Made by a program: the position numbers and the translations under genes
Part shown: positions 55,730-60,636 of the stretch, in pieces
Layout of the letters: each line of letters opens with the position of its first letter
How positions within the stretch are numbered: the stretch's first letter is position 1
NCBI RefSeq assembly: GCF_004365705.1
Contig: NZ_SOBN01000001.1
Coordinates: 5,318,001 to 5,382,000, forward strand
Direction of reading: 5' to 3'
Length of the DNA: 64,000 bases
DNA from: Streptomyces sp. 846.5
GTDB lineage: Bacteria; Actinomycetota; Actinomycetes; Streptomycetales; Streptomycetaceae
The notes under the pieces: model-generated
Told to the model about the DNA's origin: nothing
The model's database searches: none
What the model saw: the letters and a program-made list of their open reading frames with translations, nothing else

Positions 55730-56688
55730 TGACCGCCGCCGCCGACTGGCGCGCCCTCGGCTGCGCCGTGCGCCTGGTGGTCACCGACCCGAGCCGCCTG
55801 GACGACTGCCGTGAATCCCTGGAGCACTGGCTCGACGAGGTCGACGCCGCCTGCAGCCGCTTCCGCGACGACTCGCACCTGGTGGGCCTGAACACCGCCG
55901 CCGCGTACGCCGACGGGCATCCGGTCCCGGTGATCCCGCTGCTCGGCGAGGCCCTGGCCGCCGCCCTGCGCGCGGCCGAGCTCACCGACGGCGACGTCGA
56001 CCCCACCGTCGGCTCGGCGATGGCGGCCATCGGCTACGACCGTGACTTCCGGCTGATCGAGCGTGAGGGCAGGCCGGTACGGCTGCTGGTGCGGCCGGTG
56101 CCGGGCTGGCGCAAGGTCGTGCTGGACCCCGTCGCCTGCACCGTCGCCATGCCGCCGGGGGTGGAGCTCGACCTCGGCGCCACCGCGAAGGCCTGGGCCG
56201 CGGACCGGGCTGCCACCCGGCTCGCCGCCGACGCCGGCTGCGGCGTCCTGGTCAGCCTGGGCGGTGACACCGCCGTGGCCGGGGAGGCCCCCGAGGACGG
56301 CTGGCGGATACGCGTCCAGGACGCCACCGGACCCGTCGACGCCGTCGCCGAGGGCCCGCACGCCCTGGTCACCATCCGCGACGGCGGCCTGGCCAGCTCG
56401 GGCATCAGCGCCCGGCGCTGGCGGCGCGGCAGCCGTCCGATGCACCATCTGGTCGACCCGCGCACCGGTCTTCCGGCGGCGACGCCCTGGCGCACCGTCA
56501 GCGTGGCGGCCGGCACCTGCCTGGACGCCAACACCGCCAGCACCGCCGCCATGGTGCGCGGCGCGGCGGCCCCGGAGTGGCTGGCCGCGCACCGCCTCCC
56601 GGCCCGGTTGGTCGCGGCCGACGGCACCGTCACCGCGGTCGCCGACTGGCCCGCCGACGCGGAAGCGCACCCGGAGGTGGCGGTATGA
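55729..56688 (+). CDS. apbE: FAD:protein FMN transferase ApbE
   Basis: 319-aa flavin transferase that attaches FMN to a Thr of target redox proteins via a phosphoester bond. Family marks: MAAIGYDRDFR, VELDLGATAKAWAADRA (FAD/metal binding), GVLVSLGGDTAVAG and HHLVDPRTGLPA with VSVAAGTCLDANTASTAAM (Mg-binding Asp/Thr). There is no signal peptide or lipobox, so this copy works in the cytoplasm unless export is unconventional. It is coupled to the Ser/Thr-rich gene before and the membrane protein gene after (ATGA). Its usual substrate, an FMN-binding domain, is not encoded here. Confidence 0.9.
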   Translation: MTAAADWRALGCAVRLVVTDPSRLDDCRESLEHWLDEVDAACSRFRDDSHLVGLNTAAAYADGHPVPVIPLLGEALAAALRAAELTDGDVDPTVGSAMAAIGYDRDFRLIEREGRPVRLLVRPVPGWRKVVLDPVACTVAMPPGVELDLGATAKAWAADRAATRLAADAGCGVLVSLGGDTAVAGEAPEDGWRIRVQDATGPVDAVAEGPHALVTIRDGGLASSGISARRWRRGSRPMHHLVDPRTGLPAATPWRTVSVAAGTCLDANTASTAAMVRGAAAPEWLAAHRLPARLVAADGTVTAVADWPADAEAHPEVAV

Positions 56689-57338
56689 GCTCGTCCTCCC
56701 CTGTGCTCTGGTACGCGGGCCAGGCCACCGGCGTGGTGTCGCTGGTGCTGTTCTCCGCGGTCACCCTGCTGGGGGTGATGGTGCAGCTCAGGAGCCAGCT
56801 GCCGGGCCTGCCCCGGTTCGGCACGGTCACCCTGCACCGCACCCTCTCGATGCTGGCCATGGTCTTCCTGGCGATCCACATCGTGACCGCCGTCGCGGAC
56901 TCCTATGTGAACATCAACCTGGTCGACAGCGTGGTGCCGTTCGTCAGCGACTTCCAGCCGCTCTGGCTCGGTCTGGGCACGGTCGGCTTCGACCTGCTGC
57001 TCGCCGTGATCGTCACCAGCCTGCTGCGGGCCAGGATCGGCCACCGGGCCTGGCGCGCCGTGCACTGGCTGGCGTACGCGTCCTGGCCGGTGGCCGTGGT
57101 GCACGGGCTCACCCTGGGCTCCGGCACCGGCGGCATGGCCTCCGGCGTGGCCCTGTGGCTGACCGTGGCCTGCGTCGTCGCCGTCCTGGCCGCTGTGGCG
57201 GTACGGATCCGGGTCGCGCTGCGGCCCGCCGCACCCAACACCCCGGCCGCGCTGCTGGCCCGGGCCGCCGCGCCCGCCACTGCGCCGCCCGCCACCGCCC
57301 CGCACCACCACTACGCCGGCACCAGCAAGGGAGCCTGA
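56685..57338 (+). CDS. ferric-reductase-like transmembrane protein
   Basis: 217-aa protein with five to six spans. Paired His residues (LHRTLSMLAMVFLAIHIV and WRAVHWLAYASWPVAVVHG) are placed to ligate b-type hemes, as in the ferric-reductase-like/YedZ superfamily. The C-terminal tail is Ala/Pro-rich with a HHH stretch. It should carry electrons across the membrane between a cytosolic flavin/iron-sulfur unit and an outside acceptor. It overlaps apbE by ATGA and is followed after 2 nt by the NuoF-like gene. Confidence 0.82.
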   Translation: MSSSSPVLWYAGQATGVVSLVLFSAVTLLGVMVQLRSQLPGLPRFGTVTLHRTLSMLAMVFLAIHIVTAVADSYVNINLVDSVVPFVSDFQPLWLGLGTVGFDLLLAVIVTSLLRARIGHRAWRAVHWLAYASWPVAVVHGLTLGSGTGGMASGVALWLTVACVVAVLAAVAVRIRVALRPAAPNTPAALLARAAAPATAPPATAPHHHYAGTSKGA

Positions 57339-57340
57339 TC

Positions 57341-58606
57341 ATGGCGACGATCCCCCAGCCCGCCGGGGCCGTGCTGCAGGACGCCCTGCCCCGGCTGCTG
57401 CCGCGGACCCCGCTCGACCTGGCCGCCCACACCGCCCAGTACGGCCCTAGGGCCGGCGGGCAGGGACTGGCCGCGCTGCTCGCCGAGGCCGGGCTGACCG
57501 GACGCGGCGGGGCCGCCTTCCCGGTGCACCGCAAGGTGGAGGCCGTCGCCGCGGCGGCCCGGCGGAGCGGGAGGACCCCCGTCGCCGTCGCCAACGGCTG
57601 CGAGGGCGAACCGGCCAGCCACAAGGACGCGACCCTGCTGCGGCTGGCCCCGCACCTGGTCCTGGACGGGCTGCTGACCGCGGCCGAGGCGATCGGCACC
57701 CGGACCGCGCACCTCGCCGTGGAACAGGGCAGCGGTCTGCTGCCGGGACTGCGCGCGGCGCTGGCCGAGCGCCCCGGCGACACGGTGGTGCTGACCGAGG
57801 TGCCGCGCCGGTTCCTCTCCGGCGAGTCCTCCGCGCTCACCGGCTACCTCTCCGGCGGCAGCGGCCTGCCCCGCTTCCCGCAGCCGCCGACCCGCGAGCG
57901 CGGCGTCGCCGGGGCGCCCACCCTGGTGCAGAACGTGGAGACGCTCGCCCAGCTGGCGCTGATATCCCGTTACGGCCCCGGCTGGTTCCGCACCGCGGGG
58001 ACCGTGGCGGAGCCCGGCTCCATGCTGTGCACCGTCCACACCGCCGGCGGTCCGCCCCGGGTGTTCGAGGCATCCACCGGAACACCGCTGCGGCGGCTGT
58101 TCGGTCCGCTCCCGTACGCGGTCCAGGCGGTGCTGGTCGGCGGCTACCACGGCAGCTGGCTGCCGGCGGCCGCGCTGGACCGGCGACTGGCCGCGGCCGA
58201 CCTCGGCGTACCGCTGGGCGCGGGGGTGCTGGCGGCGCTGCCGGCCAACCGCTGCGGGCTGGTCGAGACGGCGCGGGTGCTGCGCTACCTGGCGCTGGAG
58301 TCGGCCGGACAGTGCGGCCCCTGCCTCAACGGGCTTCCGCGGATCGCCGCCGCCTTCGCCGATCTGGCCTCCCCGGCCAAGGCGGCCTGGGAACCCCGGC
58401 TCCTGGACGACCTGGCCCGCTGGTCCGGCCTGGTCGAGGGCCGCGGCGTGTGCCACCACCCGGACGGGACGGTGCGGCTGGTGCGCAGCGCCCTCACCGT
58501 CTTCGCCGCCGAGGTCTCCGCCCACCAGGCCGGCTACTGCACCGGGAACAGCCCGGCTCCGCTGCTGCCGGTCCCGTCCGACTCCGCACCGGAGGTCCTG
58601 CGATGA
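57341..58606 (+). CDS. NuoF-like NADH-oxidoreductase iron-sulfur/SLBB protein
   Basis: 421-aa homologue of the 51-kDa subunit of complex I. The FMN/NAD-binding N-terminal region has GLTGRGGAAFPVHRK and VANGCEGEPASHKD, a SLBB segment follows (GTPLRRLFG), and the C-terminal 4Fe-4S domain ends the protein. The cluster motif reads ESAGQCGPCLNG, where NuoF has ESCGxCxPC, so the first Cys is Ala. A later Cys (GRGVCHHPDG) can be the fourth ligand, and GYC near the C-terminus is a possible substitute. It probably oxidises NAD(P)H or ferredoxin for the module. AAGGGAG lies before the ATG. Confidence 0.85.
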   Translation: MATIPQPAGAVLQDALPRLLPRTPLDLAAHTAQYGPRAGGQGLAALLAEAGLTGRGGAAFPVHRKVEAVAAAARRSGRTPVAVANGCEGEPASHKDATLLRLAPHLVLDGLLTAAEAIGTRTAHLAVEQGSGLLPGLRAALAERPGDTVVLTEVPRRFLSGESSALTGYLSGGSGLPRFPQPPTRERGVAGAPTLVQNVETLAQLALISRYGPGWFRTAGTVAEPGSMLCTVHTAGGPPRVFEASTGTPLRRLFGPLPYAVQAVLVGGYHGSWLPAAALDRRLAAADLGVPLGAGVLAALPANRCGLVETARVLRYLALESAGQCGPCLNGLPRIAAAFADLASPAKAAWEPRLLDDLARWSGLVEGRGVCHHPDGTVRLVRSALTVFAAEVSAHQAGYCTGNSPAPLLPVPSDSAPEVLR

Positions 58607-58815
58607 GTACCAGCCTGCACCTCGCCGTCGACTGGACCGCCTGCACCGCCCACGGGCTGTGCGCGGAGCTGCTGCCGGAGCGGGTCACCCTGGACGAGTG
58701 GGGCTATCCGCTGGTCGAGGGCGCCCCGGTCCCGGACGAGGCCGTGCGGCGGGCGAGGAAAGCCGCCGCCGACTGCCCGGTACTCGCGCTGAAATTGCTC
58801 CATAAAAAGGCATGA
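58603..58815 (+). CDS. single-cluster ferredoxin
   Basis: 70-aa ferredoxin with three Cys: Cys14 and Cys20 (CTAHGLC) and Cys58 (ADCPVLAL). This is the C-x5-C...C pattern of streptomycete [3Fe-4S] (or convertible [4Fe-4S]) ferredoxins, as used with P450s. It overlaps the NuoF-like gene by ATGA and closes the redox operon, so it is probably the electron donor or acceptor of that protein. A hairpin follows within 2 nt. Confidence 0.88.
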   Translation: MSTSLHLAVDWTACTAHGLCAELLPERVTLDEWGYPLVEGAPVPDEAVRRARKAAADCPVLALKLLHKKA

Positions 58816-58816
58816 A

Positions 58817-58855
58817 AATATCCGGGCGGTCGAATTCCCCGACCGTCCGGATATT
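58817..58855. terminator. bidirectional hairpin between ferredoxin and tRNA-Cys genes
   Basis: A 16-bp stem (58817-58832 with 58840-58855) with one G-U pair and a 7-nt loop is flanked by A-rich sequence on the ferredoxin side. It ends both convergent units. Confidence 0.8.
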
Positions 58856-58875
58856 GACTGCTGCGACACGACAAG

Positions 58876-58947
58876 AGCCCATGACCGGATTCGAACCGGC
58901 GTAAACCGCTTTGCAGGCGGTTCCCTCAACCACTCGGGCACACGGGC
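58876..58947 (-). tRNA. tRNA-Cys (anticodon GCA)
   Basis: Reads on the minus strand from 58947. The acceptor stem pairs GCCCGTG with CATGGGC, the discriminator is U and CCA is not encoded. The anticodon stem ACCGC/GCGGT encloses loop CTGCAAA, giving anticodon GCA. The T arm GCCGG-TTCGAAT-CCGGT is standard, and the D arm has three base pairs. U73 and GCA are the main CysRS identity elements. It is isolated, whereas I recall the main streptomycete tRNA-Cys lying in a Gly-Cys-Val cluster, so this is probably a second tRNA-Cys species. Confidence 0.93.
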
Positions 58948-58984
58948 GTGACAGGGGTGGTACGAAGAGCGAGCAGACAGTGTT

Positions 58985-59068
58985 TCAGCTGACGGCGGGA
59001 CAACAACACGCCGTGCAGCGACAGTGGGCGCGACAGGTGCCGATGCGAACCAGGCTGCTGGTGTTCAT
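58985..59068 (-). CDS. 27-codon cysteine-rich leader ORF upstream of tRNA-Cys
   Basis: Encodes MNTSSLVRIG, then TCRAHCRC, then TACCCPAVS: 27 aa with six Cys, three of them consecutive. Five Cys codons are TGT, which is rare at this GC content. AGGGAGG ends 4 nt before the ATG, one of the strongest Shine-Dalgarno sequences in the window. It is preceded by a TTGACT/TAGAGT promoter, and its stop is 37 nt before the tRNA-Cys. It is too short for ordinary annotation. It may be a regulatory leader peptide sensing charged tRNA-Cys, or a small Cys-rich peptide. Confidence 0.6.
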   Translation of the reverse strand: MNTSSLVRIGTCRAHCRCTACCCPAVS

Positions 59069-59113
59069 CGGTCCTCCCTCAGGTCGCCATTCCCGTACTG
59101 CTCGATGCATTTG

Positions 59114-59144
59114 ACTCTACGGTATTCACCCCCGCATAAGTCAA
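59114..59144 (-). promoter_or_regulatory. promoter of the leader ORF/tRNA-Cys unit
   Basis: Minus strand -35 TTGACT (59139-59144) and -10 TAGAGT (59114-59119) with a 19-nt spacer, slightly long for HrdB. The predicted start near 59107 gives a leader of about 39 nt before the Cys-rich ORF. Confidence 0.6.
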
Positions 59145-59223: not shown

Positions 59224-60636
59224 ATGACCCTTACACTCGCTTCAGTGACCACCCACACCACCCACCCCGCCGCGACCGATGCCGAGCTCGCCCAGGACAC
59301 CGTGCTGAGCCCCCAGTACCGGGCGCTGACCCTCGGCATCGTGTCCACCGTGCTGCTCGTCGCCTTCGAGGCCACCGCGGTGAACACCGCGATGCCGGTC
59401 GCCGCCCGCGCCCTGCACGGCCTCGGGCTCTACGCCTTCGCCTTCTCCGGCTTCTTCACCGCCAGCCTGCTCGCCATGGTGGTCTCCGGGGAGTGGTGCG
59501 ACAAGCGCGGCCCGCTGGGACCGCTCAGCGCGGGCATCGCCGCCTTCGGCGCCGGCCTGCTGATCGCGGGCACCGCGCAGGGCATGGGGGTCTTCGTCGC
59601 GGGCCGGGCGGTCCAGGGGCTGGGCGGCGGGCTGGTCATCGTGGCGCTCTACGTGGTCGTCGGCCGCGCCTACCCGGAGCGGCTGCGGCCCTCCGTCTTC
59701 GCGGCCTTCTCGTCGGCCTGGGTGCTGCCCTCGATCGTCGGCCCGGTGGTGTCCGGGACGGTCACCCAGCACCTGGGCTGGCGCTGGGTGTTCCTCTCCA
59801 TACCGGTGCTGGTGCTGCTGCCGGTCTCGCTGATGCTCCCTCAGCTCCGCCGACTCCAGACCGAGGACGGCTCCGAACGCAGCTGGGCGCTGGACCGCAG
59901 CCGGCTGCTGTTCGCCCTGGCGATGGCCACCGGCGCCGGACTGCTCCAGTACGCGGGGCAGCTGCTCGACCTCTACGCGCTGATCCCGGCCGTGGCCGGG
60001 CTGCTGCTGCTCGTCCCCGCCGTCCGCCGACTGCTCCCGCGCGGCACCTTCCGGGCCGCGCGCGGCCTGCCGACGGTGATCCTGCTGCGCGGCGTCGCGG
60101 CCGGCACCTTCTTCGCCGCCGAGGCCTTCATCCCGCTGATGCTGGTCACCCAGCGCGGCCTCTCGCCGACCCTGGCCGGGCTCTCACTCACCAGCGGCGG
60201 GCTGAGCTGGGCGCTCGGCTCCTGGATCCAGGGCCGCTCCTGGGCCGACCGGCACCGCGGTCTGCTGATCCGCACCGGCTTCCTGATGTCGGCGGCGGCC
60301 ATCGCCGGGGCGGGCCTCGGCCTGGTCCAGTCGGTCCCGCCGTACGCAGTCGCCATCGCCTGGGCGGTCGGCGGGCTGGGCATGGGGCTGACCATCGCCA
60401 GCGTGGGCGTGCTGATGCTGGGCCTCTCGGACGCCGACGACACCGGCGAGAACTCCGCCTCGCTCCAGGTCAGCGACGCCCTGGGCAACGTCCTGCTGGT
60501 CGGCTTCGCCGGCGTGCTCTTCGCGGTCGTCGGGACCGGGACGAAGGGCGGTTTCGCCGCGATCTTCGCCGTGATGGCGACGATTGCCCTGGTCGGCGCG
60601 GTGGTGAGCGGACGCACGGCGAAACGGCCGCATTGA
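59224..60636 (+). CDS. MFS transporter (multidrug-efflux-like)
   Basis: 470-aa major facilitator with 12-14 spans. Motif A-like GEWCDKRGPLGPLSAG lies after the second span, and ending motif C-like sequence PSIVGPVVSGTVTQHLGWRW is characteristic of drug:H+ antiporters. The first span carries FEATAVNTAMPVAARAL, close to the D1 motif of DHA2-type exporters. The ATG at 59224 has little Shine-Dalgarno, and the in-frame GTG 59245 is an alternative. Substrate unknown. No regulator gene is adjacent; the helicase gene follows 105 nt on. Confidence 0.88.
   Translation: MTLTLASVTTHTTHPAATDAELAQDTVLSPQYRALTLGIVSTVLLVAFEATAVNTAMPVAARALHGLGLYAFAFSGFFTASLLAMVVSGEWCDKRGPLGPLSAGIAAFGAGLLIAGTAQGMGVFVAGRAVQGLGGGLVIVALYVVVGRAYPERLRPSVFAAFSSAWVLPSIVGPVVSGTVTQHLGWRWVFLSIPVLVLLPVSLMLPQLRRLQTEDGSERSWALDRSRLLFALAMATGAGLLQYAGQLLDLYALIPAVAGLLLLVPAVRRLLPRGTFRAARGLPTVILLRGVAAGTFFAAEAFIPLMLVTQRGLSPTLAGLSLTSGGLSWALGSWIQGRSWADRHRGLLIRTGFLMSAAAIAGAGLGLVQSVPPYAVAIAWAVGGLGMGLTIASVGVLMLGLSDADDTGENSASLQVSDALGNVLLVGFAGVLFAVVGTGTKGGFAAIFAVMATIALVGAVVSGRTAKRPH

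Follow-up and report, generated by a model that had tools for sequence, protein, structure and literature searches.

The window, as we call the whole stretch of 64,000 nucleotides analysed here, carries on its minus strand a short Cys-rich ORF ahead of an extra tRNA-Cys gene, and we consider it probable, at roughly 70%, that this ORF is a leader in which stalling ribosomes report on the supply of charged tRNA-Cys and so regulate transcription of the tRNA-Cys gene behind it. Bacterial tRNA genes are generally regarded as controlled chiefly at their promoters, in step with growth rate, and leaders that sense amino acids have been described for genes of biosynthesis, transport, and tRNA charging; in the present case, the sensed molecule would itself be the output. 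As a type the sensor is already known, Cys leaders before protein genes being established or proposed, and what is new is the tRNA target and a closed loop that, if true, would place a bacterial tRNA gene under the control of ribosomes reading the very codons that its product decodes. With rather less assurance, we also lean towards the fuller version of this reading, in which the second tRNA-Cys gene is a dedicated one whose transcription is set by the level of charged tRNA-Cys through stalling on the leader, a feedback loop that would date back to the common ancestor of Kitasatospora, Peterkaempfera, and Streptacidiphilus and have been retained since then.

The apparent transcription unit and its tRNA gene

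Read along the minus strand, the window presents what appears to be a complete small transcription unit, consisting of promoter-like boxes, Shine-Dalgarno (SD) sequence, ORF, spacer, tRNA-Cys(GCA), and hairpin, and flanked on one side by a convergent ferredoxin-like gene and on the other by a divergent gene of MFS transporter type (59224..60636, plus strand; both genes named from their look), the latter marking a conserved locus outside the device itself. The promoter-like boxes TTGACT and TAGAGT (59114..59144) are 19 nt apart, which exceeds the spacing of the textbook promoter, and are followed by the SD sequence AGGGAGG (59073..59079), both features being read directly in the sequence. The leader ORF (58985..59068, with its ATG at 59068) has 27 codons including the stop and encodes the peptide MNTSSLVRIGTCRAHCRCTACCCPAVS, with Cys at codons 12, 16, 18, 21, 22, and 23, of which five are TGT and one is TGC; the row of three TGT codons at 21-23 (59000..59008) is the candidate for the main putative stalling site. 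The same frame has a second ATG 14 codons upstream (a 41-aa ORF), lacking an SD sequence and located at the presumed transcript start. A C-rich spacer of 37 nt with little predicted structure (58948..58984) separates the leader stop from the second tRNA-Cys(GCA) gene (58875..58947 by ARAGORN; Rfam RF00005, 60.1 bits, 58876-58947), behind which stands a terminator-like hairpin of 9 + 7 bp with TTTT at its 3′ side (58817..58855). The earlier note had described this series of elements, from the boxes and the six-Cys ORF with its five TGT codons to the final hairpin, and all of them were found where it had placed them.

The presumed target of the leader is the tRNA-Cys, followed by the terminator-like hairpin, with no cysteine or sulfur protein gene downstream in the unit. 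At gathering scores, Rfam models matched only the tmRNA and the second tRNA-Cys in the window, with no T-box or other riboregulator, and the NCBIfam leader peptide profiles gave no family up to an E value of 10, a weak test for so short a query. Beside the tRNA, at 56577-58815, is a convergent cluster resembling ferric-reductase-type, NuoF-like, and ferredoxin-like genes, again named from their look.

Three tRNA-Cys genes occur in the genome from which the window comes: a standard one in a Gly-Cys-Val cluster, an isolated one (L215 401-471; G000:C1:4687305-4687375) for which no Cys-rich leader was called, and the leader-bearing one, itself a diverged gene with 80% identity to the standard copy across 58 bases. 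Of 394 genomes sampled from the family, 318 gave a match to the second type (E up to 1e-9). At 60 of 71 loci, some of which are the same place twice, the tRNA has upstream of it a divergently oriented relative of the window's transporter gene, so that the position of the second tRNA-Cys is orthologous in most of the examined loci, including those of Streptomyces. Over the 90 nt that follow the tRNA, predicted folds are stable, at -28.9 kcal/mol or lower, at 49 of the 50 leader-bearing sites introduced below (raw energies, not set against shuffles), the exception being L052 (-12.2 kcal/mol), where a tandem tRNA occupies this region.

Conservation and selection of the Cys codons

Chance was gauged against the 32 ORFs in the window that have 250 codons or more and a GC3 above 0.88, together 16,763 codons, which hold 9 TGT and 122 TGC and so bear out the earlier remark that TGT is rare at this GC content. 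Six or more Cys among 26 codons would arise with a probability of 4.6e-8 at the Cys frequency of these long ORFs, and of 1.4e-4 if that frequency is instead 3.2%, as in the short SD-led ORFs that precede tRNAs in the window's own genome; given the latter value the window ORF alone is notable but not decisive, and it is conservation that decides.

Upstream regions of 120 distinct sites of the second tRNA-Cys, taken from fetched loci and leaving out tRNA-Cys genes that fail the start-motif filter for the second type, were surveyed for an SD-led ORF with at least 2 Cys between promoter and tRNA. From 54 ORFs called, four (L005, L019, L120, and L123, with L120 belonging to genus g9) were removed as lying upstream of the promoter, as judged by eye, and the leader was accordingly counted at 50 of the 120 sites: 6 in Streptacidiphilus, 2 in Peterkaempfera, and 42 in Kitasatospora. 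Three further Kitasatospora leaders in loci added later stand outside the 50, and the 70 sites with no called leader include two, L052 and L086, that are second copies in tandem behind a leader. The genus groups were tied to names by identical sequences in named records (g1, Streptacidiphilus; g14, Kitasatospora; g11, Peterkaempfera); some g14 records carry the name Streptomyces and one Saccharothrix, and the window genome falls in g1. Promoter-like boxes, a TTGAC-type box with one mismatch allowed and a -10-like box 17-19 nt on, lie upstream of the leader in 50/50 cases, and the distance from the -10-like box to the ATG, with an SD sequence in between, is 33-68 nt (start sites being predicted).

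Cys accounts for 272 of 1,296 codons in the 50 leaders (21%), as against 0.8% in the window ORFs, and the TGT:TGC ratio is 189:83, as against 9:122 (Fisher 8e-36, a nominal value because related leaders are not independent). The long ORFs of 13 Kitasatospora loci have 9 TGT to 186 TGC. TGT outnumbers TGC in 43 of the 50 leaders, with totals of 27:3 in Streptacidiphilus, 9:5 in Peterkaempfera, and 153:75 in Kitasatospora. Since the non-Cys codons of the leaders show the usual GC3, 0.93, the preference for a rare codon is particular to Cys. At least two consecutive Cys occur in 48/50 leaders, and the last Cys is one codon ahead of the stop in 31.

Over 23 disjoint pairs of leaders, counting single-base differences, the nonsynonymous-to-synonymous ratio is 0.12 at Cys codons versus 1.78 at non-Cys codons. 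The aligner being biased toward Cys matches, the comparison was repeated on 16 ungapped pairs of equal length, where nonsynonymous changes number 4 per 217 sites at the Cys codons of the first member versus 70 per 697 elsewhere (Fisher 2.4e-5); a laxer count, with Cys in either member, is weaker but runs in the same direction (8 per 225 versus 66 per 689). By these counts selection keeps the Cys codons rather than the peptide, which is the mark of a codon-reading sensor. A working Cys-rich peptide, whether for metal binding, redox chemistry, toxicity, or signaling, that is co-transcribed with tRNA-Cys by happenstance receives very little credence from us: the ORF is conserved and SD-led, and an MNRKTVALAAPRTC-like N-terminus is common to many Kitasatospora leaders, as such a peptide might have it, yet residues other than Cys change as freely as synonymous sites or more so, lengths range from 12 to 39 residues, and the preference for TGT, rare in these genomes, would be left unexplained. 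Conservation beside the tRNA was the test that the earlier note had set beforehand for its own idea, and the ORF and its TGT-biased Cys codons proved to be conserved in three genera of these soil actinobacteria while the remaining peptide drifts.

A similar caller was applied to the upstream regions of tRNA genes in the window genome (75 distinct genes) and in one Kitasatospora genome (73). The leader of the second tRNA-Cys stood out for enrichment in cognate codons (4.6e-8 and 1.8e-9, respectively), the next-best cognate scores being 0.007, for a Gly-containing ORF, in the window genome and 0.14 in Kitasatospora; any qualifying ORF was present upstream of only 22/75 and 8/73 genes, so that most had nothing to score. 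Among the tRNA genes of these two genomes, judged by called ORFs, a strongly cognate-enriched leader is unique to the second tRNA-Cys. Least credible of all the readings is that of an untranslated chance ORF in GC-rich upstream DNA. Four of the 54 called ORFs were just such chance ORFs upstream of the promoter, and the value of 1.4e-4 obtained with short SD-led ORFs as the reference is modest, but conservation across three genera, selection specific to codons, the TGT bias, and the lack of anything comparable before other tRNA genes of the two genomes all speak against it.

Proposed mechanism and known leaders

According to the sensing leader that we favor, a single transcript would begin at the promoter (59144), cover the leader and tRNA-Cys, and end at the terminator. 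Ribosomes would translate the leader and, when charged Cys-tRNA is short, stall at its rare, TGT-rich Cys codons, many of them near the stop, or otherwise pass; the position of the ribosome would then determine whether RNA polymerase continues through the tRNA gene. Rho acting on the C-rich spacer would be the most likely effector, and a stall near the stop would spare the transcript, with the presumed consequence that more tRNA-Cys is made at low charging. The idea of sensing, as raised in the earlier note, is well supported by the TGT-biased Cys codons kept in three genera and the boxes upstream of every one of the 50 ORFs, whereas translation coupling, among the mechanisms then offered, has no room since the target is not translated.

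Rho is favored because the spacers are C-rich and G-poor (0.49 versus 0.22 pooled, with C exceeding G in 50/50) and the Cys codons lie near the stop, a layout shared with mycobacterial cys leaders, yet the composition of the spacer may be mere avoidance of mispairing, so that it points to Rho only weakly. The sign could also be the opposite, with an early-stalled ribosome exposing RNA to Rho and lowering tRNA synthesis. An argument against the best explanation is that, were cysteine itself short, extra tRNA would give no help.

A classical ribosome-mediated attenuator has a short ORF, here putatively translated, that lies between promoter and target and abounds in regulatory codons, and this the leader shares, but the intrinsic terminator before the target is lacking: a run of four T occurs in 1/50 spacers, and the window spacer forms no stable hairpin. 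Hairpins exceeding shuffles enclose the stop in 33/50 leaders and lie in the spacer in 34/50, but they vary by lineage, the window has neither, and there is no universal pairing, for which reasons a conserved attenuator hairpin was rejected. The earlier statement that no attenuator hairpin lies between ORF and tRNA holds for the window; in many relatives, hairpins do occur there. As a separate observation, the last Cys codon and the stop of Kitasatospora leaders (e.g., L018, L088, and L091) fall in a predicted hairpin, TGTTGCGCCTGA..CGCAAC, which is lineage-specific and absent from the window.

Folding also bears on a post-transcriptional alternative, unlikely in our estimate, in which the translated ORF senses Cys-tRNA and the position of the ribosome alters folding between upstream RNA and tRNA, or the processing of the precursor by RNase P or another RNase. 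It draws on the predicted probability of the acceptor stem, whose mean over the 50 leaders rises from 0.26 in the full transcript to 0.48, 0.62, and 0.64 with a ribosome at the first Cys, the last Cys, and the stop, respectively, and on pairing between SD region and ORF that is stronger than in codon-shuffled ORFs (mean -17.8 versus -14.3 kcal/mol; p <0.05 in 18/50). Shuffled upstream RNA, however, gives an acceptor stem probability of 0.15, so that interference with tRNA folding is general for GC-rich RNA, and the values scatter widely among relatives. A tRNA-misfolding switch was rejected, shuffled upstream RNA interfering at least equally, and so was a hairpin between SD and Cys codons as a universal switch, its pairing being significant in only those 18 leaders. 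Nor does such pairing account for the TGT bias, as TGT leads by 63:18 in total among the 19 leaders, the window's included, without a complementary ACAGG in the SD region. On the whole, these predicted folds do not separate the mechanistic models.

Returning to the sensing leader, its nearest counterparts precede protein genes. Candidate Cys leader peptides have been described for cys operons of Mycobacterium and Propionibacterium acnes and for cbs of Bifidobacterium longum (Seliverstov 2005, PMC1262725), whose authors propose Rho for the mycobacterial leaders and grade the prediction weak; these share with the present leader a short ORF, a Cys run near the stop, pyrimidine-rich stretches behind it, and no conserved terminator hairpin, and differ from it in having a protein-coding operon rather than a tRNA gene as target. 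The polycysteine short ORFs of mycobacteria (Canestrari 2020, as cited in PMC13236596) resemble it as poly-Cys ORFs of a cysteine-responsive attenuator, but are leaderless by title and cited for translation attenuation of protein genes, whereas the leader here has an SD sequence and a presumed 5′ UTR, by its predicted start site does not lie at the 5′ end of the transcript, and precedes a target without a start codon to occlude. Before cysS in Rhodobacterales, tandem Cys codons of the uORFC-8-2 motif are thought to sense tRNA-Cys charging (PMC8632094), and Cys-tRNA supply would be set there as here, but that motif, as its source presents it, controls a synthetase, ends in an intrinsic terminator, and is dominated by UGC, as opposed to a tRNA target and UGU here. 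In the same bacterial family, leader peptides precede the synthetase genes leuS, trpS, alaS, and thrS (PMC8079986; trpS and leuS also in PMC1262725) of Streptomyces and presumably likewise sense tRNA charging via cognate codons; their output is a protein, whereas here it would be the sensed tRNA, closing the loop. Our search of the literature, with most subscription papers outside it, yielded no description of a tRNA gene preceded by a leader ORF, in agreement with the earlier note, which knew of no described case of a Cys leader before a tRNA.

The sparing of the transcript has its own precedent. In tnaC of E. coli, Rho is kept from the RNA by a ribosome that has stalled close to the stop of the leader, the arrest peptide senses free tryptophan, and protein genes are controlled; a stall near the leader stop would similarly spare the transcript from Rho in the present case, although charged tRNA would be sensed and a tRNA gene controlled.

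History and variation among relatives

No leader was found at the sampled sites of g6, g7, g8, g9 (Streptomyces, 13 sites), g13, and g16, nor by the caller at six loci with a related tRNA-Cys (L147, L151, L155, L157, L165, and L167), which we take to be Streptosporangiaceae. A tree built on the neighboring transporter (56 rows from 71 loci with long flanks) requires three changes of leader state, and these are most simply explained if the leader was gained once, in the ancestor of the three genera, and lost twice, although parsimony leaves the direction unfixed. Absent at leaderless sites and probably lost twice, the leader is dispensable. Relatives with and without the leader share this locus and offer a natural experiment for asking whether the level of one tRNA species is set homeostatically by its own decoding.

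Some sites depart from the common form. Apparent decay is seen in Kitasatospora humi (L087/L145), which retains an ORF with a single Cys; L087 was left out of the leader counts, and its relative L145 was scored as leader-bearing in the tree. In one Streptacidiphilus assembly (L015/L148), also left out of the counts, the leader frame is broken, perhaps through assembly error (the L015 genome is 76% complete). The second tRNA-Cys occurs in tandem behind one leader in Peterkaempfera (L052/L132), in Kitasatospora G232 (L086), where one of the two copies has an altered anticodon loop, and in Sinosporangium (L157).

In most leaderless Kitasatospora, a similar-looking promoter (TTGAC ... GAATTCACT) stands directly before the tRNA. 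Leaderless relatives (e.g., L107, L103, and L016) also have a conserved element like GTGAACGGCGTATGGCAGTCGTATGGCA upstream of the promoter, about 83-93 nt before the tRNA; it is present at 15/68 leaderless sites by a strict pattern, and at more by eye, and it looks operator-like and may provide alternative control.
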